A model generated the notes under the pieces. That model did not search any database. It saw nothing but the letters and a program-made list of their open reading frames with translations, and was not told the DNA's origin. From positions 1,275,800-1,339,799 of the forward strand of contig OY282441.1 in assembly GCA_958296105.1 (NCBI GenBank): a stretch of DNA of 64,000 nt. Direction: 5' to 3'. A program made the translations under genes and the position numbers. The stretch is from an uncultured Dehalococcoidia bacterium. Its GTDB lineage: Bacteria; Chloroflexota; Dehalococcoidia; Lucifugimonadales; UBA1123. Shown piece by piece: positions 12,473 through 35,093 of this stretch. Within the stretch, counting starts at the first letter, position 1. Each line of letters opens with the position of its first letter.

Positions 12473-16405
<3,933 letters not shown>

Positions 16406-20432: not shown

Positions 20433-22295
20433 TCACCTCTTCGTCCGAACGTCGCCCACCCGACGGGTGACGCGCACGTGATCGAGGTGGTCCATCAGGG
20501 CCAGGGCGTACTTGCGGCTGGTGCGGAGCAGGTCGCGCACGTCCGCCACGCTGATCTCCCCGTTCTCGTCCAGATACGCCGAGATCCTATCGACCATATC
20601 GGCGTATGCCGAGGCGGAGAAGGCGACGGACTCGCTGACCTTGACCACCCTGCCCTCGGAGTCCAGCAGGTTGACGATCTCCGGGTCTATGGCGAAGTCG
20701 GTAGGCGGAGAGAACGGGTTGGAGTCGAGCTGCTCAAGATATTCGTCCGCCGTCCGCCTCTGCGAGTCTGCCAGAGTCGGCGAGTGGTCGGGCAGCCTCA
20801 CAAGCGATCCGCGCTCGACCGTCACGCGCGCTTCATCGAGCAGTGCCAGAACGTCGTTGAACACCTGGGGGGTCATGCGCAGGCGCGAGCGCAGCTCCTC
20901 CTTGGGCGCGCCGGACCTCAGCGGAAACTGCCGGTGGTAGTCTGCCAAGGCGGCGCTGGCGCGACCCTCTACGGCGCGCCAGCCGCTGGCGGTGTAGAAT
21001 CTGGATGTCTGGCGTATGCTCTTGGATCCTAGCAACACCACCTGCGCATCGGCAGCCATGGACTCCAGCTCCGCCCTGGCGGTGTCGGCGTTCATGGTCG
21101 AGCGGTTGACAACGGCGCGGAACTCGGCCGGCTCCATGCCCTCGATGGTCTTGAGCAGCACCTCGCGGTCCGTGCCTGTCTCCATGATCCGCAAGCGCTC
21201 GATGGTCGCCGAGTGGCGGCGGCGCGGACGCGGGGCGTGCGTATCCACGATGTTGCCGCCTCCGAGTGTGGTCATGTTGGAGCGTATGACGAAGTAGTCG
21301 CCCTTGGCGACCGCTATCGGGCTGTCCAGCTTCAGCTGCGCCCACGTCGTATCTCCGGGCAGCGCGCGGTCGTCCTCCAGCAGGCGCAGACGCGCGACCG
21401 CCTCGCTGGAGCCTGTGTGTACGGTCACGTACATGTTGTGGCGCAGGGGGTTCGGGGCATCCTTCAGCACGCGCAGATGGACGTCGAAGGCGGTGGTCGG
21501 CCTCAGCCAGCCGGGAGTGGTCAGCACCTCGCCCCTGAATATCCGACTGTGAGGGACGCCGATGAGGTTCACGGCGGCGCGCGTGCCGGGCTCTGCGCGA
21601 TCCACCCTGCTCTTGTGTGTCTGGAGTCCCCTGATCCGCGTACTCTGGCGCGCGATGGCAAGCTCGACGTCCTGGCCTGTCTCCACGTGGCCATCTATCA
21701 GCGTGCCGGTGACCACCGTGCCGAACCCGGTAATCGTGAACGAGCGGTCGATGGGCAGCCTCGGCCGCGCCAAGTCGCGCTTCGCGGGTATCCCTGCGAT
21801 CATGTTCTCGATTGCGGCCACCAGCTCGGGCAGTCCCTCGCGCGTGTGGGCGGAGACTGGCAGGATCGAAGCACCTTCGAGAACGGTGCCTTCGAGCGTA
21901 TCCTCGATGTCCGCAGTGACCAGCTCCAGCCACTCGTCATCGACGATGTCCTTCTTCGTCAGCGCGACCATGCCCCTGGGAATTCGGAGGAGGTCGAGGA
22001 TGGCGAGGTGTTCTCGCGTCTGGGGCATGACCGATTCGTCTGCTGCCACGACGAGCAGCGCGAGGTCTATCCCGCCAACGCCGGCGAGCATGTTGTTGAC
22101 GAAGCGCTCGTGGCCCGGGACGTCGACTATGCTGACTTCGCCGCCTCCGGGCAGTCCGAGCCATGCGAAGCCGAGGTCGATGGTCAGGCCGCGCTCTTTC
22201 TCTTCGGCGAGCCGATCAGGGTCGATGCCAGTCAGCGCCTCGACGAGGGTGGATTTTCCGTGGTCGACGTGACCTGCTGTTCCTACGACAAACAT
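20433..22295 (-). CDS. selB: Selenocysteine-specific elongation factor SelB
   Basis: A 620-residue specialised elongation factor that brings selenocysteinyl-tRNA to UGA codons followed by a SECIS hairpin. The GTPase domain shows GTAGHVDHGKST (residues 5-16), the SelB-typical EEKERGLTIDLGFA, DVPGHERF and TKKD. Domains II-III follow, then C-terminal winged helices (FPLRSGAPKEELRSRL, ISVADVRDLLRTSRKYALALMDHLD) that bind the SECIS RNA. The GLTIDLGFAW signature separates it from EF-Tu. No selA, selD or tRNA-Sec gene is seen nearby. Its presence implies that the organism makes selenoproteins; a candidate lies at 27314-27958. Confidence 0.95.
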   Translation of the reverse strand: MFVVGTAGHVDHGKSTLVEALTGIDPDRLAEEKERGLTIDLGFAWLGLPGGGEVSIVDVPGHERFVNNMLAGVGGIDLALLVVAADESVMPQTREHLAILDLLRIPRGMVALTKKDIVDDEWLELVTADIEDTLEGTVLEGASILPVSAHTREGLPELVAAIENMIAGIPAKRDLARPRLPIDRSFTITGFGTVVTGTLIDGHVETGQDVELAIARQSTRIRGLQTHKSRVDRAEPGTRAAVNLIGVPHSRIFRGEVLTTPGWLRPTTAFDVHLRVLKDAPNPLRHNMYVTVHTGSSEAVARLRLLEDDRALPGDTTWAQLKLDSPIAVAKGDYFVIRSNMTTLGGGNIVDTHAPRPRRRHSATIERLRIMETGTDREVLLKTIEGMEPAEFRAVVNRSTMNADTARAELESMAADAQVVLLGSKSIRQTSRFYTASGWRAVEGRASAALADYHRQFPLRSGAPKEELRSRLRMTPQVFNDVLALLDEARVTVERGSLVRLPDHSPTLADSQRRTADEYLEQLDSNPFSPPTDFAIDPEIVNLLDSEGRVVKVSESVAFSASAYADMVDRISAYLDENGEISVADVRDLLRTSRKYALALMDHLDHVRVTRRVGDVRTKR

Positions 22296-22490: not shown

Positions 22491-22811
22491 TCAGTCGCGG
22501 GCTGAGCCTTCGCCTACGCGCTGGCCAGCCTGTTCCCGCTCGACCGCACGCAGGCGGGAGTCGAGGTCCAGGCGAGACTCCAAGCTCTCGCGGAGATACC
22601 TGAACTCAGCTACGATCTCTGCGTTCTGCGCCCTCATCTCTGCGCCCTGCGCCTCGATCTTGGCTTCGAGCCTGTCGTTCTGCGCCCTCATCTCTGCGCC
22701 CTGCGCCTCGATCTTGCCGCTCTGTGTGTGCATCTGCCACGTAAGTGCGATCACTCCCAGCGAGAACGTAACCACCACAGCTATTACTGCGACCATTTCC
22801 CCTGTTTCCAT
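22491..22811 (-). CDS. Small membrane-anchored coiled-coil protein, copy 1
   Basis: A 106-residue member of a five-gene tandem family. Layout: METGEM, one transmembrane helix (VAVIAVVVTFSLGVIAL, about residues 6-24), a linker with MHTQSG, then repeats of KIEAQGAEMRAQNDRLEA (one full 18-residue unit plus a partial one), and a constant tail FRYLRESLESRLDLDS to the end. Hydrophobic positions are spaced 7, 7 and 4, as in a stuttered coiled coil. The start is set by GGAGG five bases before the ATG, as in all copies. Function unknown. Confidence 0.75.
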   Translation of the reverse strand: METGEMVAVIAVVVTFSLGVIALTWQMHTQSGKIEAQGAEMRAQNDRLEAKIEAQGAEMRAQNAEIVAEFRYLRESLESRLDLDSRLRAVEREQAGQRVGEGSARD

Positions 22812-22969
22812 GAACGCCTCCTTATGGGGGATGAAGCAGCGACAACCGCGGAAGAGACAGATTCGACCCGCAACAGTCCGGCGCGGGGTTCGAGCGAAGC
22901 GCGCCACATGAACCCGCAGGACTTCAATTGTAACATGGGCGGCGATAGGCGATAGAAGAAAGGGAGCGA

Positions 22970-23377
22970 TCAGTCGCCGGCTGAGCCTTCGCCTACGCGC
23001 TGGCCAGCCTGTTCCCGCTCGACCGCGCGCACGCGGGAATCGAGGTCCAGGCGAGACTCCAAGCTCTCGCGGAGATACCTGAACTCAGCTACGATCTCGG
23101 CGTTCTGCGCCCTCATCTCTGCACCCTGCGCCCTCATCTCTGCGCCCTGTGCCTCGATCTTGGCTTCAAGCCTGTCGTTCTGCGCCCTCATCTCTACGCC
23201 CTGCGCCTCGATCTTGGCCTCGATCTTGGCTTCGAGTCTGTCGTTCTGCACCCTCATCTCTACGCCCTGCGCCTCGATCTTGCCGCTCTGTGTGTGCATC
23301 TGCCACATAAGCGCGATCACTCCCAGTGAGAACGTAATAACCACAGCTATTACTGCGACCATTTCCCCTGTTTCCAT
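22970..23377 (-). CDS. Small membrane-anchored coiled-coil protein, copy 2
   Basis: A 135-residue family member with the longest repeat tract of the five. After the same N-terminal membrane helix come three repeat units with the variants GVEMRVQ and GVEMRAQ, two inserted KIEA segments, and a doubled 7-residue piece EMRAQGA. The C-terminal tail is the same as in the other copies. Units have been gained by in-frame duplication in multiples of codons, so the coiled coil changes length while the ends stay constant. The ATG is preceded by GGAGG. Confidence 0.75.
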   Translation of the reverse strand: METGEMVAVIAVVITFSLGVIALMWQMHTQSGKIEAQGVEMRVQNDRLEAKIEAKIEAQGVEMRAQNDRLEAKIEAQGAEMRAQGAEMRAQNAEIVAEFRYLRESLESRLDLDSRVRAVEREQAGQRVGEGSAGD

Positions 23378-23498
23378 GAACGCCTCCTCGTGTGGGATGA
23401 AGCAGTGCCAACTGCCGAGAGACAGATTCGACCCGCAACAGTCTGGCGCGGGGTTCGAGCGAAGCGCGCGCCACGTAAACCCGCAGGGACCCAAGCGA

Positions 23499-23831
23499 TC
23501 AGTCGCGGGCTGAGCCTTCGCCTACGCGCTGACCAGCCTGTTCCCGCTCGACCGCGCGCACGCGGGAGTCGAGGTCCAGGCGAGACTCCAAGCTCTCGCG
23601 GAGATACCTGAACTCAGCCAAGAGCTTGGCCTCGAGTCTGTCGTTCTGCGCCCTCATCTCTGCGCCCTGCGCCTCGATCTTGGCCTCGAGCCTGTTGTTC
23701 TGCGCCCTCATCTCTGCGCCCTGCGCCTCGATCTTGCCGCTCTGTGTGTGCATCTGCCACGTAAGCGCGATCACTCCCAGCGAGAACGTAACCACCACAG
23801 CTATTACTGCGACCATTTCCCCTGTTTCCAT
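23499..23831 (-). CDS. Small membrane-anchored coiled-coil protein, copy 3
   Basis: A 110-residue family member with two repeat units (AQNNRLEA and AQNDRLEA). The junction to the constant tail differs: KLLAEFRYL in place of AEIVAEFRYL, so the last partial unit has been lost. The N-terminal helix and tail are otherwise identical. The GGAGG ribosome-binding site stands just before the ATG. Confidence 0.75.
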   Translation of the reverse strand: METGEMVAVIAVVVTFSLGVIALTWQMHTQSGKIEAQGAEMRAQNNRLEAKIEAQGAEMRAQNDRLEAKLLAEFRYLRESLESRLDLDSRVRAVEREQAGQRVGEGSARD

Positions 23832-23989
23832 GAACGCCTCCTTGTGTGGGATGAAGCAGCGCCAACCGCGGAAGAGACAGATTCGACCCGCAACAGTCCG
23901 GCGCGGGGTTCAAGAGAAGCGCGCCACGTGAACCCGCAGGACTTCAATTGTAACATGGGCGGCGATAGGCGATAGAAGAAAGGGAGCGA

Positions 23990-24355
23990 TCAGTCGCGGG
24001 CTGAGCCTTCGCCTACGCGCTGGCCAGCCTGTTCCCGCTCGACCGCGCGCACTCGGGAGTCAAGGTCCAGGCGAGACTCCAAGCTCTCGCGGAGATACCT
24101 GAACTCAGCTAGGATCTCTGCGTTCTGTGCCCTCATCTCTGCGCCCTGTGCCTCGATCTTGGCCTCGATCTTGGACTCGAGTCTGTCGTTCTGCACCCTC
24201 ATCTCTACGCCCTGCGCCTCGATCTTGGCTTCGAGCCTGTCGTTCTGCGCCTCGATCTTGCCGCTCTGTGTGTGCATCTGCCACGTAAGCGCGATCACTC
24301 CCAATGAGAACGTAATAACCACAGCTATTACTGCGACCATCTCCCCTGTTTCCAT
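23990..24355 (-). CDS. Small membrane-anchored coiled-coil protein, copy 4
   Basis: A 121-residue family member. The repeat tract starts with a shortened unit (KIEAQNDRLEA, 11 residues), then a full unit with GVEMRVQ and RLESKIEA, then the partial last unit AEILAEF. The 11-residue unit equals one hendecad, which keeps the coiled coil in register. Membrane helix, tail and ribosome-binding site are as in the other copies. Confidence 0.75.
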   Translation of the reverse strand: METGEMVAVIAVVITFSLGVIALTWQMHTQSGKIEAQNDRLEAKIEAQGVEMRVQNDRLESKIEAKIEAQGAEMRAQNAEILAEFRYLRESLESRLDLDSRVRAVEREQAGQRVGEGSARD

Positions 24356-24504
24356 GAACGCCTCCTTATGTGGGATGAAGCAGCGCCAACTGCCGAGAGA
24401 CAGATTCGACTCGCAACAGTCCGGCGCGGGGTTCAACGAAGCGCGCCACGTGAACCCGCAGGGCTTCAATTGTAACATGGGCGGCGATAGAAGAAAGGGA
24501 GCGA

Positions 24505-24891
24505 TCAGTCGCGGGCTGAGCCTTCGCTTACACGCTGACCAGCCTGTTCCCGCTCGACCGCGCGCACGCGGGAGTCGAGGTCCAGGCGAGACTCCAAGCT
24601 CTCTCGGAGATACCTGAACTCAGCTACGATCTCTGCGTTCTGCGCCCTCATCTCTGCGCCCTGCGCCTCGATCTTGGCTTCGAGTCTGTCGTTCTGCGCC
24701 CTCATTTCCACGCCCTGCGCCTCGATCTTGGCCTCGATCTTGGCTTCGAGTCTGTCGTTCTGCACCCTCATCTCTACGCCCTGCGCCTCGATCTTGCTGC
24801 TCTGTGTGTGCATCTGCCACATAAGCGCGATCACTCCCAGTGAGAACGTAATAACCACAGCTATTACTGCGACCATTTCCCCTGTTTCCAT
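24505..24891 (-). CDS. Small membrane-anchored coiled-coil protein, copy 5
   Basis: A 128-residue family member, first of the array in the direction of transcription. The repeat tract is close to that of copy 2 (GVEMRVQ, an extra KIEA, GVEMRAQ, then GAEMRAQNAEI) but lacks the doubled 7-residue piece. Near-identity to copy 2 suggests a recent duplication or gene conversion. Function unknown; the type II-like topology would place the coiled coil outside or inside depending on insertion, which the charge pattern does not settle. Confidence 0.75.
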   Translation of the reverse strand: METGEMVAVIAVVITFSLGVIALMWQMHTQSSKIEAQGVEMRVQNDRLEAKIEAKIEAQGVEMRAQNDRLEAKIEAQGAEMRAQNAEIVAEFRYLRESLESRLDLDSRVRAVEREQAGQRVSEGSARD

Positions 24892-25118: not shown

Positions 25119-25124
25119 TATAGT
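25119..25124 (+). promoter_or_regulatory. Candidate -10 box of the copper/selenoprotein operon
   Basis: TATAGT stands 9 bases before the ATG at 25134, so the transcript would start within a few bases of the start codon, a second near-leaderless arrangement in this window. No convincing -35 is seen. No ribosome-binding site precedes the ATG. Confidence 0.4.
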
Positions 25125-25133
25125 TCTTGTGCT

Positions 25134-25556
25134 ATGGAACGAGTCTTGGCTAGAGTGTTGCCCGTATTTTTGGCGGTGACAATGGTGGCGCTGCCTTCGC
25201 TGGGTCCGATGGTGGACCACCATTTCGCGGAGCGTCAGCCGTACCACGCCCACTTGGGCGCGGATACGGGACACGTACACGGCTACCGCGCTTTCCATGA
25301 ACATCTTCCGGTCGGGAGCGGCGCGAATGCTCCAATGGGTAACGAGGGCAGCGTCGCCCTTCCGAATCTCGAAGTCGCATCTTCGGCGGCTCCGGCGGCG
25401 ATGCCGGCGGAGACGGACACGATACGCGCGCTCATGGACGCGGCGGATGGCGTGTTCGCCATCGAGGGCGCGGCGGACTCGGTTCTCGGCTCGGTTTACT
25501 GCACTCCTCCGCTCAGACCGCCTCGCTGCGGCGCGTTGGCTTTCGTTTCTCTGTAA
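25134..25556 (+). CDS. Exported His-rich small protein
   Basis: A 140-residue protein starting MERVLARVLPVFLAVTMVALP, a signal or anchor helix, followed by an exported His-rich stretch (DHHFAERQPYHAHL, then HVHGYRAFHEHLP), which is likely to bind metal. A cysteine-containing end (SVYCTPPLRPPRCGALA) closes the protein. I do not recognise a family. It is the first gene of the run leading to CopC/CopD, so copper or another transition metal is a reasonable ligand. An upstream ATG at 25089 is in frame but lies before the promoter. Confidence 0.6.
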   Translation: MERVLARVLPVFLAVTMVALPSLGPMVDHHFAERQPYHAHLGADTGHVHGYRAFHEHLPVGSGANAPMGNEGSVALPNLEVASSAAPAAMPAETDTIRALMDAADGVFAIEGAADSVLGSVYCTPPLRPPRCGALAFVSL

Positions 25557-25581
25557 CCGAGATGCGCTGGGGCGTCTGTCT

Positions 25582-26193
25582 GTGAGTGTTCGGTTGTTCA
25601 TTCGTTCGGTATCGCGGGTGGCCGCTACGTCATTGCGGGACGGTCACGCGCTGGTCGTCCTGTCCGTCGTGACGCTGGCGGCGGTCGGACTGGCGAGCGT
25701 CCAAGCGGCGAGCGCGCACGGGGGCGGATTCAGTCTGGACAGACGGGCGAGCGCGGGGCCCTACGAGCTGCGGCTCGGCACGATTCCCAACCCGCTTACG
25801 GTGGGCGAGGGTATCCTGATCATGGAAGTCCTAGCCTCGCAGACGGGCGAGCGCGTATCGAGCGCCGACGTGGTGATCACGCCGCAGCGACCGGACGGCG
25901 CAGCGGATCCATACGGCGCTCTGGAAACCTGGCCCGACTCCTATGATCCGACTCTGTACGAGTCCCGCGTGGAGCTGGACGCAGAAGGCGCATGGGCGTT
26001 CAGGGTGAGCGTGAGCGGAGACGCGGGGGCGGGAACGGCGCTGTTCGCCTACGAGGTGCGGCGCGTCAGCCCGGTCGGGGGAATCATAACCCTGTTCGTC
26101 TTGCTGGTCTTGCTCACGATACTGGGGCTTTCGATGCGCGCGTTCCTGAATCAGAGAGACAGCGGCCAAAGAGTCAAGCGGCGAAGGGCATAG
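25582..26193 (+). CDS. YtkA/FixH-like membrane-anchored beta-sandwich protein
   Basis: A 203-residue exported protein. A signal helix (VVLSVVTLAAVGLASVQAASA) is followed by a domain with GPYELRLGTIPNPLTVGEGILIM, which looks like the YtkA-like fold found in copper-export and cytochrome oxidase neighbourhoods, and by a C-terminal membrane helix (GGIITLFVLLVLLTILGLSM) with a basic cytosolic end. The frame is open back to 25297, but that part is Arg-rich shadow sequence overlapping the preceding gene, so I use the GTG at 25582. It lies 29 bp before the next gene. Confidence 0.65.
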   Translation: MSVRLFIRSVSRVAATSLRDGHALVVLSVVTLAAVGLASVQAASAHGGGFSLDRRASAGPYELRLGTIPNPLTVGEGILIMEVLASQTGERVSSADVVITPQRPDGAADPYGALETWPDSYDPTLYESRVELDAEGAWAFRVSVSGDAGAGTALFAYEVRRVSPVGGIITLFVLLVLLTILGLSMRAFLNQRDSGQRVKRRRA

Positions 26194-26222
26194 CCCGTAT
26201 GAGAACTCTTTGGAGGTCGGTC

Positions 26223-27317
26223 ATGTCGAAGATTCTAATTGCGATGATCTCAGCGGCGGCGCTGGCATCGACTTCAGCCGCCGCGTTCGCGCACGAAGAT
26301 CGAGAGTATGGAGACTACCAGCTGGTGGTGGGATTCATGCAAGAACCCGCATACGAAGGTGAGAAGAACGCGGTCAGCATCCGCGTCACGAAGGAGAAAG
26401 AAGAGGGGAGCCGCGCGGCGGACATGGGCATGGGAAGCCATGACAGCGCGTCCCACGCGCCAGTCGAGTCCGAGACGCCCGTCAGCGCGCGAATCAGCGC
26501 CGAGCTGGAGACGGGCGGCGGCGTGAACGTCCACATAATGACGGAGGGCTGGAGCTGGTCGCCGCAAGGCGTGAACCTGCCCCACAAGCCCGGAGAAGGA
26601 CACGCTCACATCTACGTGGACGGCGAGAAGGTGGGCAGAGTCTATGCGCCATACTATCATCTGGCGGGGCTTCAGCCGGGCGAGCGACACATCCGAGTGG
26701 CGCTCAACACGAACGACCACAACGAGCTGACGGTGAACGGTGAGATCGTGGAGGCGACGGCAACGGTGAGGATTCCCGACACAGGGGCGGACGATACAGG
26801 GATGGGCGGCATGGAGTCGCGGGCAGAGCCGGAGGCGGTGGGCGTGGAGGGGCTTCAAGATACGCTTCGTGTGGAGGTGACGCACGTTCCATCCGGCGTC
26901 TCGATGGTTATGAACCTGCGGTCGGTGTTCGAGGATCCGGGACACTACGCGGCGGATCTGATTCCGACTTCGCCGGGCCACTATCGTATGCGCGTGTTTG
27001 GGACGGTGGAAGGCGAGGAGATAGACGCGACCTTCGAGTCCAAGGCGGGAGGCGGAGACTTCGACGACGTACAGCCGGCGTCGGCGATTCACTTCCCGGA
27101 CGCGCTCCCGTCCGGCCGCGAGCTGGAGGGCGCGGCGAGGGGGGCGCAAGCCGCCGCCGAGAGCGCGCGGGACGCTGCCATGAGCGCGGAAGAGTCGGTG
27201 AGCGGCGCATCCACTCTGGGGCTGGTCGGGGTCGCGCTGGGCGCGCTCGGCGCGCTCATGGGCGGCGGGGCGCTGCTGATATCCATGCGAAACAGGTCAG
27301 GAGAGAGTACGAGGTGA
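26223..27317 (+). CDS. Exported two-domain protein of the copper operon
   Basis: A 364-residue protein with a cleavable signal (ALASTSAAAFAHEDREYG; the mature protein would start with His-Glu-Asp). Domain one begins YQLVVGFMQEPAYEGEKNAVSI, resembling the YtkA-like domain of the previous gene, and is interrupted by a Met/His stretch (ADMGMGSHDSASHAP). A middle domain with GHAHIYVDGEKVGRVYAPYYHLAGL resembles DUF4399-type modules. A second YtkA-like domain (DTLRVEVTHVPSGVSMVM) and a C-terminal membrane helix (LGLVGVALGALGALMGGGALLI) follow. GGAGG at 26212-26216 supports the ATG at 26223. Its stop overlaps the GTG of the next gene. Confidence 0.7.
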   Translation: MSKILIAMISAAALASTSAAAFAHEDREYGDYQLVVGFMQEPAYEGEKNAVSIRVTKEKEEGSRAADMGMGSHDSASHAPVESETPVSARISAELETGGGVNVHIMTEGWSWSPQGVNLPHKPGEGHAHIYVDGEKVGRVYAPYYHLAGLQPGERHIRVALNTNDHNELTVNGEIVEATATVRIPDTGADDTGMGGMESRAEPEAVGVEGLQDTLRVEVTHVPSGVSMVMNLRSVFEDPGHYAADLIPTSPGHYRMRVFGTVEGEEIDATFESKAGGGDFDDVQPASAIHFPDALPSGRELEGAARGAQAAAESARDAAMSAEESVSGASTLGLVGVALGALGALMGGGALLISMRNRSGESTR

Positions 27318-27958
27318 AGCAGCTTATCTACATGCTCACATCTGCCGCGCTGGTGGCGTTCGCTGGGCTGGCGCTTGGCGGGTGCGGAGGCGGAGGCGGA
27401 GGCGCGCGCGAGCCATCGCCCCCCGCCGCAGCGCCCACGCAGGCCGTGGTCGCGCCCACCCAACTGCCTGCGCCAGAGCCGCCCGCGCCAAGCTCGTCCG
27501 ACACGCTCGCGGCCCCAGATTTCAGCCTGCCGTCTGCGGATGGAAGCGCGGTGTCGCTCGCCGCGCTCATGCAAGGCCGGGCGGCGACGGTCTTGGTGTT
27601 CTATCGGGGCTTCTTCTGAGGCATATGCAGGAACCAGCTCGTGGAGCTGGCAGAGGCATATCCGAAGTTCGTGGAGCGGAACGTGGCGCTCGCCGCGATC
27701 AGCACGGACGGCATCGAAGACGCGCGAGGGATGGCGGAGGTGGCTGGGGCGAAGTTCCCGGTGCTGGCGGATGAGGATGCGAGCGTTTCCAAAGGCTATC
27801 GGATCTTCGACCTGCTGAACGATGGCGTCGCCGCGCCTGCGACGTTCGTCATCGACTCGGACGGCGGGATCGTGTCGTACCACGTCGCCGCTAACATCGG
27901 CGAGAGGCCGTCGCCAGATCAGATACTGGCGGAGATCGACCGCCTGACTCTCCCGTGA
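27314..27958 (+). CDS. Candidate selenoprotein: lipoprotein peroxiredoxin with UGA at the active site
   Basis: A 214-residue thioredoxin-fold peroxiredoxin-like (AhpC/TSA) protein if UGA at 27617-27619 is read as selenocysteine (residue 102). The N-terminus is a lipoprotein signal ending LALGGC (Cys24), then a Pro/Ala linker, then PDFSLPSADGSAVSL. The active site reads VLVFYRGFF-U-GIC-RNQL, matching the family motif FYRGxxCxxC with the first Cys replaced. After UGA the frame runs on with family-typical AAISTDG, FPVLADED, YRIFDL and APATFVIDSDG up to 27958. The GTG start overlaps the previous stop, and its own stop overlaps the next GTG. Without UGA decoding the protein would end just before its catalytic site. 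Confidence 0.85.
27617..27658 (+). promoter_or_regulatory. Candidate bacterial SECIS hairpin
   Basis: Starting 14 bases after the UGA, CCAGCTC (27634-27640) pairs perfectly with GAGCTGG (27644-27650) around a three-base GTG loop; TGC at 27626-27628 can extend the stem by pairing with GCA at 27656-27658 after small bulges. A stem with a short loop beginning with G about 20 bases after UGA is what bacterial SelB recognises. The hairpin lies within the reading frame, as in bacterial selenoprotein genes. Confidence 0.65.
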
Positions 27959-30204
27959 GCGCTCGCGGACTGGGCGGGAGCTTCGGCAAGCTGCCAATCG
28001 CTTGCGCGTGTCTCCTCGCGCTGCTGCTGGCGCTAACACCGCTAACGGCGGAGGCGCACGCCAATCTCGTCGAGTCCGATCCGGCTGCCAGCTCGTCGCT
28101 CGACTCGGCGCCGGACAGGGTGACGATCAGGTTCACGGAGCCGCTGGAAGCCGCGCTCAGCGGGATTCAGGTTCTGGATCGGCAGGGCGAGCGTGTGGAT
28201 GGTGGGGACAGCGCGGTCCACTCCGATGACCCGCTCACGATGTCGGTGTCGCTGGAAGACGTGGAGGACGGCGTTTACACGGTCGTGTGGCGGAACGTCT
28301 CCACAGTGGACGGTCACCGCGTTCGCGGGGCGTTCGTGTTCTCGGTGGGCGAGCCGCTGTCCGATGCCGACCGCCCCGAGATTGCCGACCAGCCGATTCT
28401 ACAGTCATGGGCCGAGCCGTTCGCGCGCTGGCTGACGCTGCTGGGCGGACTCGTCTTGGTGGGATGCCTGAGCTTTCGGATGCTGGTATCGAGGCCGGTC
28501 GTGGAATCGCTGGACGCGCGCGGCGTCTCCAAGTTGAAGGGGACGCTGTGGGGCGCAGACCTCAAGCTGGTGTGGCTTGGGCTGGCGCTGTTCCTCAGCG
28601 CGTCCGCGGCTCATCTGGTGATACAGGCGTCGGTCGTGTTCGATACGTCGATCGTCGGCGCGGTTGGCGGGCCGATCTGGTCGATACTGACCGAAACGGA
28701 TTGGGGACGCGCGTGGATATGGCGCGTCGCGCTCGCTGTCGCTCTGGGCGAGGTGGCGTTCGTGGCGTGGAGACGGGGGGAGAATCTCGGAATTCTCGCG
28801 CTTGGCATCGCGCTCGGCGCGGGGGCGCTGCTCACTGTCAGCCTAACCAGTCACGCCGCGGCGACGCCTGCCGTCAGGGGCGGGGCGCTGGTCAACGACT
28901 TCGTTCACATGATCGCCGCCGCGGTATGGGTGGGCGGACTCTTTAGCCTAGCGGTGGCGATCCGGCTCGTGTTCGCCAACCTGAGCGGCGACGGCAGGCG
29001 AGCGGCGCTGACTGCGCTGGCGGCGCGGTTCTCGGCAGTGGCTGGGGCGAGCGTAGCCGCGCTCGCGCTGACGGGCGCTTACAGCGCATGGGCGCAGGTG
29101 ACGATACCGCAGGCGCTGGTCGTTCCGTATGGCTCCGCTCTCGTCGCCAAGCTGTGCGCGGTGGCGGTGATTCTCGCGCTGGCAGCCGTCAACCTGATCT
29201 GGGTCAGGCCTCGCCTGAAGGGGAGCGGCAGGGCCGCAGCGTGGCTCAGGCGGCTGGTGATCGCGGAGGCGGCGATGGGGACTCTCGTTCTGCTGGCAGT
29301 GGGCTTCCTCACCGCGCTGGAGCCGGCGAGACAGGTGGCGTCTCGGCAGGGTATCGGAACGGAGGACATGCTGATCTTTCAGGACACCGTCGAGGGCGCA
29401 GGCATCACGCTCGAAATAGAGCCGGGCCAGATAGGGATGAACCGTATCGGCGTGTCGCTGCGTGACCGATTCGGCGATCCGATTGCCAACGTCAGCGACG
29501 TGAGGGTGCGGCTGTCGTATCTGGACGAGGATCTGGGCGAGACCGCCGTTTCCGCGCTTCCGTCGGGCGCGGGGGAGTTCGCGCTGGATGGGCAGCCGAT
29601 CAGTCTGTCCGGAGCGTGGCAGGTCGAAGTCGTGGCGCAGCGTTCGGACGCCTTCGACGCTCGCGCCGCGTTCAGGTTCGAGGTGTCCGGATCCGAACGC
29701 GGAAGCCTTGCCATCGCACCGTCCGCGCAGACGGGGCGGATGCTGCTGGGGGTCGAGGCGGGAGTGTTCGGGCTGCTGCTGCTCGGAGTCGGCATTCCTC
29801 TGGGCGGCTGGCAGTCGAGAGCGGGCGCGGCGACGATGTCGCTTGGCGCAGTCACTGTGACAGCCGCCGCCGCGCTCGTATTCAACGCGACGGGGGGCGA
29901 TGGAGGCGTTTCCGCGCGAAACCCGATTCCGCCGACTTCGGAGTCGATAGCCGCCGGAATGGAGATATACGAAGCCAGCTGCCAAGCGTGTCATGGAGTG
30001 TCGGGAAGGGGAGACGGGCCGGCTGGAGTGTCCCTGGATCCGCCGCCCGCCGATCTCGCGCTGCACGTCCCGCTGCACCCGGAGCGCGCGCTGTTCGGGT
30101 TCGTGCGAGACGGCATTCCCGACAGCGCGATGGTCGGGGTGGGTGATAAGCTGTCGGAGGACGAGATATGGCATCTGATCAACTACATCCAGACGTTCGA
30201 GTAG
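27955..30204 (+). CDS. CopC-CopD-cytochrome c fusion protein
   Basis: A 749-residue membrane protein. The signal peptide ends at TAEA and the mature chain would start His-Ala-Asn (His35), the amino-terminal copper ligand of CopC; the CopC domain ends near DGHRVRGAFVFSV. About eight membrane helices with a CopD-like domain follow (residues about 140-470). Then come an extracytoplasmic beta domain (GITLEIEPGQIGMNRIGVSL) resembling YtkA modules, two helices, and a C-terminal cytochrome c domain with CQACHG and a methionine-rich MVGVGDK near the end. CopC/CopD are copper-binding and copper-transport proteins; the fused haem domain suggests redox coupling. The GTG start overlaps the selenoprotein stop. 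Confidence 0.85.
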   Translation: MSARGLGGSFGKLPIACACLLALLLALTPLTAEAHANLVESDPAASSSLDSAPDRVTIRFTEPLEAALSGIQVLDRQGERVDGGDSAVHSDDPLTMSVSLEDVEDGVYTVVWRNVSTVDGHRVRGAFVFSVGEPLSDADRPEIADQPILQSWAEPFARWLTLLGGLVLVGCLSFRMLVSRPVVESLDARGVSKLKGTLWGADLKLVWLGLALFLSASAAHLVIQASVVFDTSIVGAVGGPIWSILTETDWGRAWIWRVALAVALGEVAFVAWRRGENLGILALGIALGAGALLTVSLTSHAAATPAVRGGALVNDFVHMIAAAVWVGGLFSLAVAIRLVFANLSGDGRRAALTALAARFSAVAGASVAALALTGAYSAWAQVTIPQALVVPYGSALVAKLCAVAVILALAAVNLIWVRPRLKGSGRAAAWLRRLVIAEAAMGTLVLLAVGFLTALEPARQVASRQGIGTEDMLIFQDTVEGAGITLEIEPGQIGMNRIGVSLRDRFGDPIANVSDVRVRLSYLDEDLGETAVSALPSGAGEFALDGQPISLSGAWQVEVVAQRSDAFDARAAFRFEVSGSERGSLAIAPSAQTGRMLLGVEAGVFGLLLLGVGIPLGGWQSRAGAATMSLGAVTVTAAAALVFNATGGDGGVSARNPIPPTSESIAAGMEIYEASCQACHGVSGRGDGPAGVSLDPPPADLALHVPLHPERALFGFVRDGIPDSAMVGVGDKLSEDEIWHLINYIQTFE

Positions 30205-30220
30205 GGGCGAGGAGCGAGGG

Positions 30221-31738
30221 TTGAAGCCGATCAGGATGGTTACAGCGGCCGCGCTGGGGGGCGCGCTCGCGCTGTCGGCTTCGCCGCTCTCGGCGCACGC
30301 CTTCGGTCAGCGCTACGACCTTCCGATACCGCTCAACTACTTCCTCGTGGGCGCGGTGGCGACTGTCGCGCTGTCGTTCGCGGTGATTGGAATGTTCGTC
30401 CGACGAGGCGATGGAGAGTTGTCGTATCCGCGCCTCGATCTGCTTCGCGTTCCGGTTATAGGGTCTGCGCTGTCCAGCCGAATTACGTCCGCCACTGTCA
30501 GGACGCTCTCGGTGGCGGTGTTCGTCCTTCTGCTGACTGCCGGATTCTTCGGGACGGACCGCGCCATAGACAACATTTCTCCGACGTTCATCTGGATCAT
30601 CTGGTGGGTCGGGATGGGATACGTCGTGGCGCTGGCGGGCAACCTGTGGTGGCACGTCAACCCGTGGAAGATCGTCTTCGAGTGGGGGCAAAAGCTCTTT
30701 GGGAACGCCGACGAGCCAGAAGACCCGCCATTCCGATACCCTGAAGGGCTGGACATCTGGCCTGCGGCGCTGCTGTTCTTCCTGTTCGCGTGGGCGGAGA
30801 ACGTCTACACGGGCGCGTTCAGACCGTTCACGCTATCTGTGATGATTCTTCTGTACTCCGCCATCATGTGGGCGGGAATGGCGGCGTTCGGGAAGCATAC
30901 ATGGCTCAGGCACGCGGACGCCTTTACCGTGCTGTTCGGGTTCTTCTCCCGCTTCTCCGCCACCGAGCTCAGGGTGACTGACAGGGCCGCGTGCGGCGGG
31001 TGCGGCTCGGATTGCGGCAAGGGGGCCGAGTGCGTGGACTGCTACGACTGTTTCGAGCGCGCGCCGTCTGATGGCAGAGAGCTGAACCTGCGCCCGTTCG
31101 CCGTAGGTCTAGCGTCGCAAAGGCGCATATCCACGGCAACCGCCGCCTTCGTGATTCTGGCTCTGTCCACCGTGACTTTCGACGGGTTTCAGGACACCGA
31201 GACGTGGGCGAACCTGCGAACGAGCCTTCTGAGGCTTGCCAGCGTGGACGTGGTGGATACGCTGGGGCTTGCTGCGGCGCCCTCGATATTCGCGGCGGTC
31301 TATCTGGCTTTCTGCTGGGGGGTGGCGCGCGCGGGCGGGGAGCGGGCGGGCGCGCTTGCGGCGGCGCGGGGGTTCGCCCTGTCACTGGTTCCCATAGCGC
31401 TGGCTTACAACATGGCTCACTTCATAACGCTGCTGCTGATCGAAGGGCAGCTCATCATTCCGCTCGCATCGGATCCGCTGGGGCTGGGCTGGGATCTGTT
31501 CGGCACGGCAGGTTACGCGATAAACCGGTACGTCATCAGCGCGAAGGCGGTGTGGTTCATCAGCCTGACAGCGATAGTTCTCGGTCACGTGATCGCGGTC
31601 TATCTGGCGCACCTGACAGCCCTCAGAAGGGCGCCCGCAGGGTCTGGCGCGCTGAGGGGGCAGCTGCCAATGCTGGCGCTGATGATACTCTACACCGCAT
31701 CCAGCCTGTGGATAATCGCTCAGCCAATTGTGGGGTGA
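30221..31738 (+). CDS. Polytopic membrane protein with Cys-rich loop
   Basis: A 505-residue protein with an N-terminal signal-like helix and about ten membrane segments; I do not recognise a named family. A loop near residues 255-280 contains CGGCGSDCGKGAECVDCYDC, a dense cysteine cluster fit to bind metal or an Fe-S centre. A histidine-bearing loop GNLWWHVNPWKIVF precedes it. The start is TTG at 30221 with GAGG-type ribosome-binding sequence; it lies 16 bp after the CopC-CopD fusion and probably closes the operon. Its position suggests a part in copper or electron handling at the membrane. Confidence 0.7.
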   Translation: MKPIRMVTAAALGGALALSASPLSAHAFGQRYDLPIPLNYFLVGAVATVALSFAVIGMFVRRGDGELSYPRLDLLRVPVIGSALSSRITSATVRTLSVAVFVLLLTAGFFGTDRAIDNISPTFIWIIWWVGMGYVVALAGNLWWHVNPWKIVFEWGQKLFGNADEPEDPPFRYPEGLDIWPAALLFFLFAWAENVYTGAFRPFTLSVMILLYSAIMWAGMAAFGKHTWLRHADAFTVLFGFFSRFSATELRVTDRAACGGCGSDCGKGAECVDCYDCFERAPSDGRELNLRPFAVGLASQRRISTATAAFVILALSTVTFDGFQDTETWANLRTSLLRLASVDVVDTLGLAAAPSIFAAVYLAFCWGVARAGGERAGALAAARGFALSLVPIALAYNMAHFITLLLIEGQLIIPLASDPLGLGWDLFGTAGYAINRYVISAKAVWFISLTAIVLGHVIAVYLAHLTALRRAPAGSGALRGQLPMLALMILYTASSLWIIAQPIVG

Positions 31739-31898: not shown

Positions 31899-33422
31899 AT
31901 TAGTCCTGAAAGCCATCATCTCCAGCAGACAGCTTTTCACGTCGAGCCAGCAGACAGCCATCCAACACAGACTGGCGCAGCTGTCGAAGTCACGGACAGC
32001 CCGCGCGAAGCCTGTGGCGCGGTGGGAGTCTACAATCGCGGGGAGGACGTTGCCCAAGTCGCCTTCTTTGGGGTGTACGCGCTCCAGCATCGCGGCCAAG
32101 AGAGCGCGGGAATAGCCTCTGCGGACGGCCATCGGATCCGAAATCGCACGGCGATGGGTCTGATCAGCCAAGCGCTGGGGGAGGACGATCTTACCGATCT
32201 GCCGGGACACATCGCCATTGCGCACACGCGCTACTCCACCACCGGATCCAACCGCATCGTGAACGCTCAACCCATCGTCGCCTCCGGCCCGGGCATCGAG
32301 CTTGCGCTTGCCCACAACGGCAACGTGATAAACGCGGCGGAGCTGCGCGCGGAGATGGAGGGGAAAGGGCTGCGCTTCAGCGGTACGAACGACTCCGAGA
32401 TCATCGCCAGTCTACTAGCCAACGCCCCCGCCTCGGACTGGGAAGGGCGCATATCCTACCTGATGCGAAGGCTCAGCGGCGCCTACTCGCTGACGGCGCT
32501 GACGAAAGACCAGCTTCTGGGCATCAGAGACCCGCTTGGGGTGAGGCCGCTTTGCGTTGGCAGGCTGAACGAGGGCGGCTGGGTAATCGCATCCGAGTCT
32601 TGCGCGCTCGACCACGTGGGCGCGGAATACGTCAGGGACATCGAGCCGGGCGAGGCGGTGGCGATAGACGAGCAGGGGCTGCGCACCGTGAAGCGACCAG
32701 TCGAGAACGGCAGGCGCGCCAGCTGCATCTTCGAGAACATCTACTTCGCAAGGCCCGACAGTGTGATCGACGGCCGTCTGATGTACACCAACCGCAAGAG
32801 AATGGGCGCGGAGCTTGCCAAGGAGCATCCCGCGGATGCGGACATGGTCATCGGCGTGCCGGACTCCGCCACCATCGCCGCCGATGGCTACGCGCAGATG
32901 TCGGGAATCCCCTACGGGGAGGGGCTGATGAAGAACCGCTACGTGGGGCGCACGTTCATCGAACCCAATCAGCGCTTCCGAGACCTTGGGGTCAGGCGCA
33001 AGTTCAACCCGCTGACCGAAATCATTCGGGGCAAGCGGCTGGTGGTGGTGGACGACAGCATCGTGCGCGGCACCACCACGCCGCACGTGGTCAAGCTGCT
33101 TCGCAAAGCTGGGGCCAGTGAAGTACATCTGCGGATAACCTCCCCTCCGATCGTGTCCACCTGCCCCTTCGGGGTGGACATGGCGACCAGAGAAGAGCTT
33201 ATCGCCGCGAACATGTCGGTGGAGGAGATTCGGCGGGAGGTGGGAGCGGACTCGCTCGGCTACCTGAGCGTGGAAGGGCTGACGCGCGCGGTCGAAAGGG
33301 CGGAGGACAACTTCTGTCTGGGCTGCTTCACGGGTGAGTACCCGATCCCCGTAGATATAGAGATGGACAAGCTGGTCATGGAGGATCCAGAGCCGGAGGA
33401 TCCAGAGGTCGAGCCGGACTAG
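31899..33422 (+). CDS. purF: Amidophosphoribosyltransferase (start uncertain)
   Basis: First enzyme of purine synthesis, making phosphoribosylamine from PRPP and glutamine. The N-terminal nucleophile is the Cys encoded at 32013-32015 (CGAVGVYN), followed by YALQHRGQESAGIA; the PRPP loop is LVVVDDSIVRGTT; cysteines in CPFGVDM and FCLGCFTGEYP match the Fe-S type of PurF. The frame is open back to 31827 but contains no ATG, GTG or TTG before the Cys; the GTG at 32022 would remove it. The best candidate is ATT at 31899, nine bases after AAGGAG, giving a 38-residue propeptide ending DSPREA. A sequence error upstream is the alternative. Confidence 0.85.
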   Translation: MSPESHHLQQTAFHVEPADSHPTQTGAAVEVTDSPREACGAVGVYNRGEDVAQVAFFGVYALQHRGQESAGIASADGHRIRNRTAMGLISQALGEDDLTDLPGHIAIAHTRYSTTGSNRIVNAQPIVASGPGIELALAHNGNVINAAELRAEMEGKGLRFSGTNDSEIIASLLANAPASDWEGRISYLMRRLSGAYSLTALTKDQLLGIRDPLGVRPLCVGRLNEGGWVIASESCALDHVGAEYVRDIEPGEAVAIDEQGLRTVKRPVENGRRASCIFENIYFARPDSVIDGRLMYTNRKRMGAELAKEHPADADMVIGVPDSATIAADGYAQMSGIPYGEGLMKNRYVGRTFIEPNQRFRDLGVRRKFNPLTEIIRGKRLVVVDDSIVRGTTTPHVVKLLRKAGASEVHLRITSPPIVSTCPFGVDMATREELIAANMSVEEIRREVGADSLGYLSVEGLTRAVERAEDNFCLGCFTGEYPIPVDIEMDKLVMEDPEPEDPEVEPD

Positions 33423-33435
33423 GGAGGCTGTGCCT

Positions 33436-34083
33436 GTGGGAATGCTTCGGCTTGGCGTGCTTGCTTCTCATGGCGGCTCGAACTTGCAGGCAATCATGGA
33501 CGCCAGCCGCGATGGAACACTTCACGCAGAGATTCGGGTGGTGATCTCCAACAACTCTCGCTCCGTCGCCATCGAACGCGCGCGCAGAGCGGGTATACCG
33601 ACAGCGCACCTGAGCGGCGCGACTCATCCCGACCCCGCCGATTTGGACAGCGCGCTCGCAAGCGAGCTGCTGATGCACAGGGTCGAGCTGGTCGCGCTTG
33701 CCGGGTACATGAAGAAGCTGGGGCCTGCCACGCTGTCGGCTTTTCGCAGCCGCATCGTCAACGTGCATCCGTCGCTTCTGCCCAAGTTCGGCGGCGTCGG
33801 AATGTACGGCGAGCGCGTCCATGAGGCTGTGCTGGCGGCTGGCGACGGGGTGTCTGGAGTCACCGTCCACGTGGTGGACGCGGAGTACGATCACGGTCGC
33901 GCAATAGCTCAGCGGAAAGTCTCCGTACTGCGCGAAGACACCCCCGATACGCTCGCGGCGCGGGTGCTGGCGCAGGAACACATCCTGTATCCGCAGACTC
34001 TCCAGCGCATCGCCACAGGCGAGATAGACCTCGACGCGGCTGCCGAAGGCGGTCGCGCGGAATCCCACAGGACCGACCCATGA
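33436..34083 (+). CDS. purN: Phosphoribosylglycinamide formyltransferase
   Basis: A GART enzyme of about 215 residues that transfers a formyl group from 10-formyltetrahydrofolate to GAR in purine synthesis. Seen are the GAR-binding LASHGGSNLQAIMDA, catalytic Asn/His in IVNVHPSLLPKFGG, and the distal Asp in VDAEYDHGRAI. GTG at 33436 is 8 bases after GGAGG and is preferred; GTG at 33430 is too close to it and ATG at 33442 rather far. The stop overlaps the purM ATG (ATGA), so the genes are coupled. Confidence 0.95.
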   Translation: MGMLRLGVLASHGGSNLQAIMDASRDGTLHAEIRVVISNNSRSVAIERARRAGIPTAHLSGATHPDPADLDSALASELLMHRVELVALAGYMKKLGPATLSAFRSRIVNVHPSLLPKFGGVGMYGERVHEAVLAAGDGVSGVTVHVVDAEYDHGRAIAQRKVSVLREDTPDTLAARVLAQEHILYPQTLQRIATGEIDLDAAAEGGRAESHRTDP

Positions 34084-35093
34084 CAGAGCGCACATACAGG
34101 CTGGCGGGGGTCGATCTGGATGCGTCGCAGAAGGTCAAGCGACGCATCAGCGACATCGTGGCAAAGACGCACGGGCCGGAGGTGCTGGCTGGGGTTGGCG
34201 CGTTCGGCGCGCTCTATGCCTTCTCCGGCTATACAGACCCCGTGCTGGTCGCCAGTACGGACCCCGTTGGAACGAAGCTGAAGCTGGCGGTGATGACCGA
34301 CCGATACGAGGGCATAGGCGAGGATCTGGTCAACGCCTGCGTCAATGACGTGATCGTGTGCGGGGCGAAGCCCATGCTGTTCATGGACTACATCAACATG
34401 GGCAGTCTGCGCGCGGACGTGGTGGAGACTCTGGTGGAAGGCATGGCGAGGGCGTGCGAAGATGTCGGCTGCGCGCTGATCGGCGGGGAGACGGCGGAGA
34501 TGCCGGGCGTGTTCGCCGAGGGCAGCTTCGACGTGTCCGGGTTCGCGCTGGGAGCGGTGGAGCGGTCGGAGATTATAGATACCTCGCGGATCGAAGCGGG
34601 AGACGCGCTGATCGGGGTTCCGTCCAACGGGCTGCACACCAACGGGTATTCGCTCGTTCGCCACGTGTACGGGCTGGACGATGACCCGTCTCCCCTGTCC
34701 GAGTACCGCCCCGATCTTGGCGAGACGCTCGGCGAGGCGCTGCTCCGTCCGCATCCTCCATACTACAACCGGCTTCGCCATGTGTTCGGCATCGTGAAGG
34801 GGGTAGCGCACGTCACGGGCGGCGGGCTGATCGAGAACGTGCCGAGAATGCTGCCCGAGGGCGTATCGGCGAAGTTCGATACGCTCTCATGGCCGCTGCC
34901 TCCGATATTCTTTCAGATTCAGGAGGACGGCGGCATCTCCCGCGAGGAGATGTACCGAGTGTTCAACATGGGGCTGGGCATGGTGATCGCCTGCGACAGG
35001 AGCCTGGCGGACGAGGCGCTGGCGCTGATTCCGGGCGCGCTGGAGGTGGGCGAGGTGGTTACAGACAGCGGCGGAGGTCGTGTTATTCTATAA
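34080..35093 (+). CDS. purM: Phosphoribosylformylglycinamidine cyclo-ligase
   Basis: A 337-residue AIR synthetase of the PurM/ThiL superfamily, closing the imidazole ring in purine synthesis with ATP. Markers are the substrate region LVASTDPVGTKLKLA, the conserved DLVNACVNDVIVCGAKPM, IGGETAEMPGVF, and the glycine-rich HVTGGGLIENVPR. The length is normal. It overlaps purN by four bases. The next gene in the operon is not purine-related; a short gap of 38 bp separates them. Confidence 0.96.
   Translation: MTERTYRLAGVDLDASQKVKRRISDIVAKTHGPEVLAGVGAFGALYAFSGYTDPVLVASTDPVGTKLKLAVMTDRYEGIGEDLVNACVNDVIVCGAKPMLFMDYINMGSLRADVVETLVEGMARACEDVGCALIGGETAEMPGVFAEGSFDVSGFALGAVERSEIIDTSRIEAGDALIGVPSNGLHTNGYSLVRHVYGLDDDPSPLSEYRPDLGETLGEALLRPHPPYYNRLRHVFGIVKGVAHVTGGGLIENVPRMLPEGVSAKFDTLSWPLPPIFFQIQEDGGISREEMYRVFNMGLGMVIACDRSLADEALALIPGALEVGEVVTDSGGGRVIL

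Follow-up and report, generated by a model that had tools for sequence, protein, structure and literature searches.

Genes for CopC/CopD and for PmoD adjoin copper monooxygenase genes, and bacterial copper import is poorly understood. The nearest described relative of the locus reported here is YcnJ of Bacillus subtilis, which is needed under copper limitation and requires a CopC brace and a CopD histidine (PMC13344008, PMC12362106). When copper is limiting, YcnJ supports both heme-copper oxidases of B. subtilis, and its YtkA domain, like CtaK, takes part in CuA assembly (PMC13344008). This 2026 study states that a reductase partner of YcnJ is not known (PMC13344008). The UxxC 'Prx-like thiol:disulfide oxidoreductases', to which one of the genes described below is compared, are a listed selenoprotein family (Table 1 of PMC13188914).

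The window analysed here is a stretch of 64,000 nucleotides (G000:C1:1275800-1339799) from the genome, 3.18 Mb in a single contig, of a marine bacterium of the SAR202 type. ORF calling in the window gives six co-directional genes, A to F, at 25134-31738 on the + strand (Table 1). They had been described as head to tail with overlapping codons; the common direction stands, but overlaps of 4 bases (GTGA both times) occur only at the C/D and D/E junctions, while gaps of 16-29 bases separate A/B, B/C and E/F. It is a real and conserved copper operon. Gene content, metal and haem ligands, selenocysteine coding, linkage and the recurring copper neighbourhoods were all observed directly and are presented in turn. 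Our best reading is an elaborated YcnJ-type system with an unusual haem fusion. Its role is probably the extracytoplasmic acquisition of copper and its delivery to a heme-copper cytochrome oxidase, presumably one of the caa3 type.

Table 1. Features of the operon; positions are those of the window
Feature	Position	Strand	Basis
Gene A: small His-rich protein	25134..25556	+	ORF; same motif in relatives
Gene B: exported YtkA-like protein, C-terminal anchor, GTG start	25582..26193	+	PF13115
Gene C: exported beta-rich protein, C-terminal TM helix	26223..27317	+	ORF
Gene D: selenoprotein, AhpC/TSA fold, lipoprotein-type signal, UGIC active site (Sec102)	27314..27958	+	PF00578
In-frame TGA read as selenocysteine, codon 102 of D	27617..27619	+	conserved in homologues
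SECIS-like hairpin, 7 bp stem, loop GUG	27634..27650	+	pairing and covariation
Gene E: CopC-CopD-YtkA-like-cytochrome c fusion, GTG start	27955..30204	+	Pfam, NCBIfam, alignment, profile comparison
E CopC domain, His35/D119/H121 invariant	28057..28347	+	alignment including YcnJ CopC, PDB 9c14
E CopD membrane domain, H300 and H318 invariant	28420..29328	+	NF033808, alignment
E YtkA-like domain	29350..29694	+	profile-profile match, gene B family
E class I cytochrome c domain, C676-x-x-C679-H680, M726 invariant	29947..30195	+	Pfam, alignment
Gene F: polytopic membrane family, AHAFG (H26) before first membrane helix	30221..31738	+	alignment, AF2
F Cys-rich loop, Chloroflexota-specific	30992..31051	+	homologue comparison

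Gene E is present in 26 of 98 relatives. In 17 of the 21 relatives having both E and a strong F the two genes lie no more than 12 kb apart, and this linkage rules out chance clustering. A genome search for conserved co-occurrence, proposed in the original prediction as a check, thus turned out well for E and F but not for D, which joins them in 6 genomes and is missing from most E-F loci. Four of these 6 belong to the same genus as the window, a fifth to its family and the last to a different family. The module therefore consists of E and F, in most cases accompanied by A, B and C, and D is an accessory. Gene order varies among relatives; at L039 and L053 it begins with F and ends with E. Directly downstream of the operon (32022-35093) are purine synthesis genes, identified by reading as purF-, purN- and purM-like, and seemingly the same cluster follows F on its 3' side in several other SAR202 loci, i.e. 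the synteny is conserved. On the other flank, 22491-24891 on the - strand holds four or five small paralogues in tandem, with METGEMVAVIAVVVTFSLGVIAL ahead of a coiled coil in which the number of KIEAQGAEMRAQNDRLEA units varies. These paralogues contain repeats of 21, 54 and 66 bases and possibly form a variable repeat-protein family.

As predicted, CopC, CopD and cytochrome c domains are joined in the single reading frame of E: PF04234 matches residues 35-131 (E=4e-21), PF05425 residues 355-452 (E=3e-18) and PF13442 residues 665-747 (E=4e-11). The CopD model NF033808 spans residues 156-458 with E=4e-37 and 128 bits, below its cut-off of 195. A YtkA-like domain was missing from the earlier description. 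More specifically, residues 466-580 match the gene B family in profile comparison (probability 96%, E 4.7e-9), a region where Pfam YtkA itself finds no match. Because of this match, the order CopC-CopD-YtkA-like-cytochrome c amounts to YcnJ with an added haem domain. The ligands of the CopC, membrane and haem domains marked in Table 1 are invariant in an alignment of 14 sequences, in which the relatives are 24-58% identical to E. H35 is the first residue past the expected signal cut, and either H300 or H318 may be the counterpart of H295 in YcnJ. The best PDB match to the CopC domain is that of YcnJ (9c14, E 2e-13), aligned end to end. By analogy, E may take up copper as YcnJ does. In the non-subscription literature searched we found no description of a CopC-CopD-cytochrome c fusion. 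One E homologue (G011:C6:48473-50020) contains one in-frame TGA.

The His-rich small protein noted at the start of the operon is gene A. It has an N-terminal hydrophobic segment, a GP..DHHFAERxPxHxH motif and a PPxRPPR-type C-terminal tail, and searches of Pfam and NCBIfam gave no match. The motif recurs in relatives upstream of F, including beside a cox cluster. Two exported YtkA-like proteins had been expected next. Of the two, only B resembles YtkA in the HMM search, by a match to PF13115 of E=1.8e-4 that scores 22.5 bits, under the Pfam cut-off of 25.9; B homologues are found upstream of F in 26 loci. Gene C, on the other hand, has no convincing family in the HMM search (best E 0.008, below cut-off); its core is weakly YtkA-like with an inserted His-rich domain, and its profile similarity to B is weak. 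The AF2 model of C has a pLDDT of 67 and its Foldseek matches are generic Ig/FN3-like sandwiches, hence uninformative. At the expected signal cleavage point of C stands A23-H24, invariant in 8 relatives. An Ala-His at this point is common to the exported proteins C, E and F; in CopC its His is a copper ligand, and cleavage in C and F is predicted.

Gene F represents an undescribed core membrane family. It has no match in Pfam, NCBIfam or PDB sequences, and three of its homologues are likewise without an NCBIfam match. Homologues were found in 76 of the 98 relative genomes, in Beta- and Alphaproteobacteria, and on actinobacterial and haloarchaeal plasmids, where the annotated ones are called 'hypothetical protein'. 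The annotation 'fenitrothion hydrolase FedAB' may also be in use for F-like proteins. The AF2 model is polytopic and confident (pLDDT 87.5, pTM 0.86), and comparison with the PDB gave no clear fold: the best Foldseek E is 0.26, and the best VIA-align Z of 6.5 is under the stated noise level for helical models. CopD (PF05425), CtaG and other named families were considered for F and gave no HMM match; F may nonetheless have a known fold. In a sample of bacterial and archaeal sequences H400, H456, H464, M488 and D321 are conserved in 29/29 and H26 in 28/29. H456 and H464 lie on one predicted helix and M484 and M488 on another. F had been introduced as a Cys-rich polytopic protein. It is indeed a membrane protein with a Cys-rich loop, but the family-wide residues are His and Met and the loop is missing outside Chloroflexota, which rules it out as the functional core. 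We speak of a putative transporter because of the conserved His/Met residues and the gene context, F being without a clear fold match.

In most relatives F is usually found closely 3' of, or overlapping, a gene for a small exported protein with the motif H-x-H-G-Y. All matches of this partner to PF13473 (Cupredoxin_1; E 2e-5 to 0.16) are below the cut-off. The cupredoxin motif occurs at 4 of 15 loci with E versus 39 of 50 others (Fisher p 5e-4, with kinship among the sequences ignored). F and the small partner are near copper membrane monooxygenase genes in Mycobacterium dioxanotrophicus and Mycolicibacterium chubuense, and about 8 kb from such genes in Rhodococcus WAY2. In M. gallinarum the genes next to F encode CopC, a metal-sensing regulator, subunit III of a heme-copper oxidase, TlpA and a factor for cytochrome oxidase assembly, and in Halobaculum multicopper oxidase and plastocyanin genes are near F. 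The other plasmid neighbourhoods of F contain no copper gene, and in several organisms unrelated genes adjoin it. At L113, L118 and L119, on actinobacterial plasmids, the monooxygenase genes near F and its partner are of the hydrocarbon/dioxane type; the pair is a candidate for the copper supply of these monooxygenases. The location of F near genes of copper monooxygenases, multicopper oxidases and cytochrome oxidase in very different organisms makes F a specific candidate for a step of copper transport or insertion that is still missing.

These neighbourhoods, together with the conserved CopC ligands of E, give good support to the surface copper handling that the original prediction put forward. 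They also bear on the metal. That E and F serve haem or a transition metal other than copper is very unlikely. It would fit the lack of a characterised homologue of F and the Dyp peroxidase and iron transporter genes that flank F in haloarchaea, but the copper enzymes that recur near F and the CopC ligands of E speak for copper. Which enzyme receives the copper is a separate question. The monooxygenase genes near F and its partner in actinobacteria, and other copper enzymes elsewhere, would fit a supply mainly to an unrecognised copper oxidase or monooxygenase, the oxidase link being incidental. We regard such a supply as unlikely, given that in SAR202 relatives the genes adjoin Sco, cox and ctaG genes and that COX1 is present in 92/98 relatives.

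The adjacency is clearest in G013, where A, B, the cupredoxin gene, F, Sco, two small genes, coxB, coxA, coxC, coxD, CtaG and CtaA/CtaB follow each other on one strand (coxC and coxD identified by reading). In G049 the set B-cupredoxin-F is about 9 kb past a cox cluster (coxA), and G012 and G083, which belong to the same genus as G049, have a similar distance between F and cox. As three of the four genomes share one genus, the linkage of F to cox counts as about two independent cases. The genome of the window itself has one COX1 and one Sco, and its coxA lies 344 kb from the operon, so the oxidase link is drawn by analogy with relatives. No PCuAC was found in this genome. B. subtilis likewise lacks PCuAC, CtaK/YtkA standing in for it (PMC9145763). 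The COX2 genes of the relatives mentioned have a fused cytochrome c, i.e. they are of the caa3 type. This feature, along with the invariant haem ligands of E, would suit a variant of our best explanation in which the cytochrome c of E is no cupric reductase and docks the importer to bc/ACIII or the caa3 oxidase, so that copper is delivered at the site of oxidase assembly. Such docking is possible but doubtful; the annotated cytochrome c/FTR1 iron permease fusion favours redox-coupled passage of metal instead.

Regarding gene D, PF00578 matches with E=1.7e-27 and the frame is open but for one TGA. Among its homologues in the 98 relatives, nearly all of the best 25 matches have exactly one TGA, and the codon is found at the same place, within the UxxC motif, in 30 distinct sequences. 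The hairpin begins 15 nt past the TGA and has a 7-pair stem with a 3-base loop starting with G. In 28 sequences 94.9% of its cells are paired, with a covariation of 0.36 versus 0.148 when shuffled and at most 0.074 when slid; the stem lies within Gln-Leu-Val/Gly-Glu-Leu codons, and most changes in it compensate each other. The genome encodes tRNA-Sec (66 bits), SelA and SelD, and a SelB-like ORF, recognised by reading, is in the same window (20433-22295, - strand). Judged from its sequence D is a genuine selenoprotein. A real stop codon or a sequencing error was considered for the TGA and is ruled out by the 30 homologues with TGA, most of them with a paired hairpin. No Cys versions of D were found among the loci examined, and in G047 a D homologue without a stop adjoins F. 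The SelD gene (G000:C1:539652-540569) also has an in-frame TGA, and therefore SelD is probably a selenoprotein itself. SAR202 genomes contain several D paralogues with in-frame TGA, their UxxC being found in FYRGFFUGIC and FYRAFWUTYC/UPFC contexts, and two paralogues are side by side at G028:C1:364386-365546.

D had been taken for a candidate selenoperoxiredoxin, of which the selenoprotein part holds and the peroxiredoxin part does not. When D is aligned with mycobacterial AhpE (FTGIC), Sec102 falls on the Thr and C105 on the AhpE Cys; with Sec at the Thr position of TxxC, D is rejected as a classical peroxiredoxin. As Sec replaces this Thr, D belongs with the UxxC Prx-like thiol:disulfide oxidoreductases, and it has the AhpC-TSA domain, the UxxC and the SECIS-like hairpin of this family in a genome with Sec machinery. 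Both the Sec position and the fit to the family point to a disulfide reductase as likelier than a peroxidase. The selenium-based peroxidase of the original prediction is thereby not supported (PMC13188914). D is, in addition, an optional part of the operon.

The same holds for the proposed copper export or detoxification. One could picture exported proteins that sequester copper and a selenoprotein that removes copper-made peroxide: the names CopC/CopD come from copper resistance operons, sequestration of copper is within the reach of His-rich proteins, and D has a Prx-type fold. Such a defence against copper and peroxide is quite unlikely. By ORFs and Pfam the operon encodes neither a P-type ATPase nor a multicopper oxidase, an RND pump or a regulator, and it has no copper efflux component; the nearest fusion, YcnJ, imports copper and is needed under limitation (PMC13344008, PMC12362106); the motif of D is UxxC, not TxxC; and in relatives the genes sit with oxidase assembly genes.

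Returning to copper acquisition and delivery for a cytochrome oxidase, the components could cooperate as follows. Outside the membrane, copper would be gathered, buffered or relayed by the His-rich protein A together with B and C, which are exported. The CopC domain of E, with ligands shown by conservation, would bind Cu(II) through the histidine brace H35/D119/H121 and, as in YcnJ, may hand it to the CopD membrane domain. During uptake the fused cytochrome c might exchange an electron with the copper and so provide the Cu(II)/Cu(I) reductase step missing from YcnJ. The fused haem is an attractive but speculative candidate for this cupric reductase. F would then move copper across or into the membrane, or load the oxidase, by means of its invariant His and Met residues. 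In most relatives F would work with its cupredoxin-like partner and here with E in its place, as their alternation and the neighbourhoods suggest. The Sec lipoprotein D, as an accessory, may hold a copper site, or extracytoplasmic thiols such as the cysteines of CuA or Sco, in the reduced state. We tentatively extend this scheme: F and its cupredoxin-like partner might be a copper transport or insertion pair not described so far, a functional counterpart of CopCD in bacteria and haloarchaea, that in Chloroflexota has merged with a self-contained reductive importer, E, whose cytochrome c would be the cupric reductase, assisted by a Sec thiol reductant. This wider proposal is less probable than the copper delivery itself. 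A natural importer-cytochrome c fusion makes the reductase question of YcnJ directly testable. The copper supply of respiratory enzymes matters in the ocean, and SAR202 bacteria are widespread there.

Comparison with known systems places the individual parts. As for the assembly factors CtaK (YtkA), Sco and CtaG, B and the middle domain of E are YtkA-like and one relative has A-B-cupredoxin-F in an unbroken run with Sco, cox and ctaG genes; B differs by scoring under the Pfam YtkA cut-off, and an assembly role of B, C and F is putative. With the UxxC Prx-like thiol:disulfide oxidoreductases (PF00578) D shares the Prx fold, Sec in UxxC and a SECIS-like hairpin, whereas it differs in having a lipoprotein-type signal and in lying within a copper operon; its activity is predicted. 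F and its small partner hold a position near CuMMO genes comparable to that of CopC/CopD and PmoD beside copper monooxygenases, yet F has no CopD family match detectable at sequence level; kinship in fold is possible. Cytochrome c/FTR1 iron permease fusions, known here from annotation alone, resemble E as metal permeases fused to a c-type cytochrome, but they concern iron and the FTR1 fold and E concerns copper and CopD. A gene so annotated is located at ~14432-14713 of Acidovorax temperans NZ_CP117195.1. The original prediction knew of no described system of this composition, which in the literature searched is true of the full set, but the core is recognisably YcnJ-like. With YcnJ of B. subtilis, E has in common the order CopC-CopD-YtkA in one polypeptide and the conserved Cu(II) ligands of CopC, and service to a heme-copper oxidase is proposed for the E operon too. 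In contrast to ycnKJI, the operon has no gene for YcnI (DUF1775) or YcnK and contains A, B, C, D and F instead, and to the YcnJ architecture E adds a C-terminal cytochrome c.
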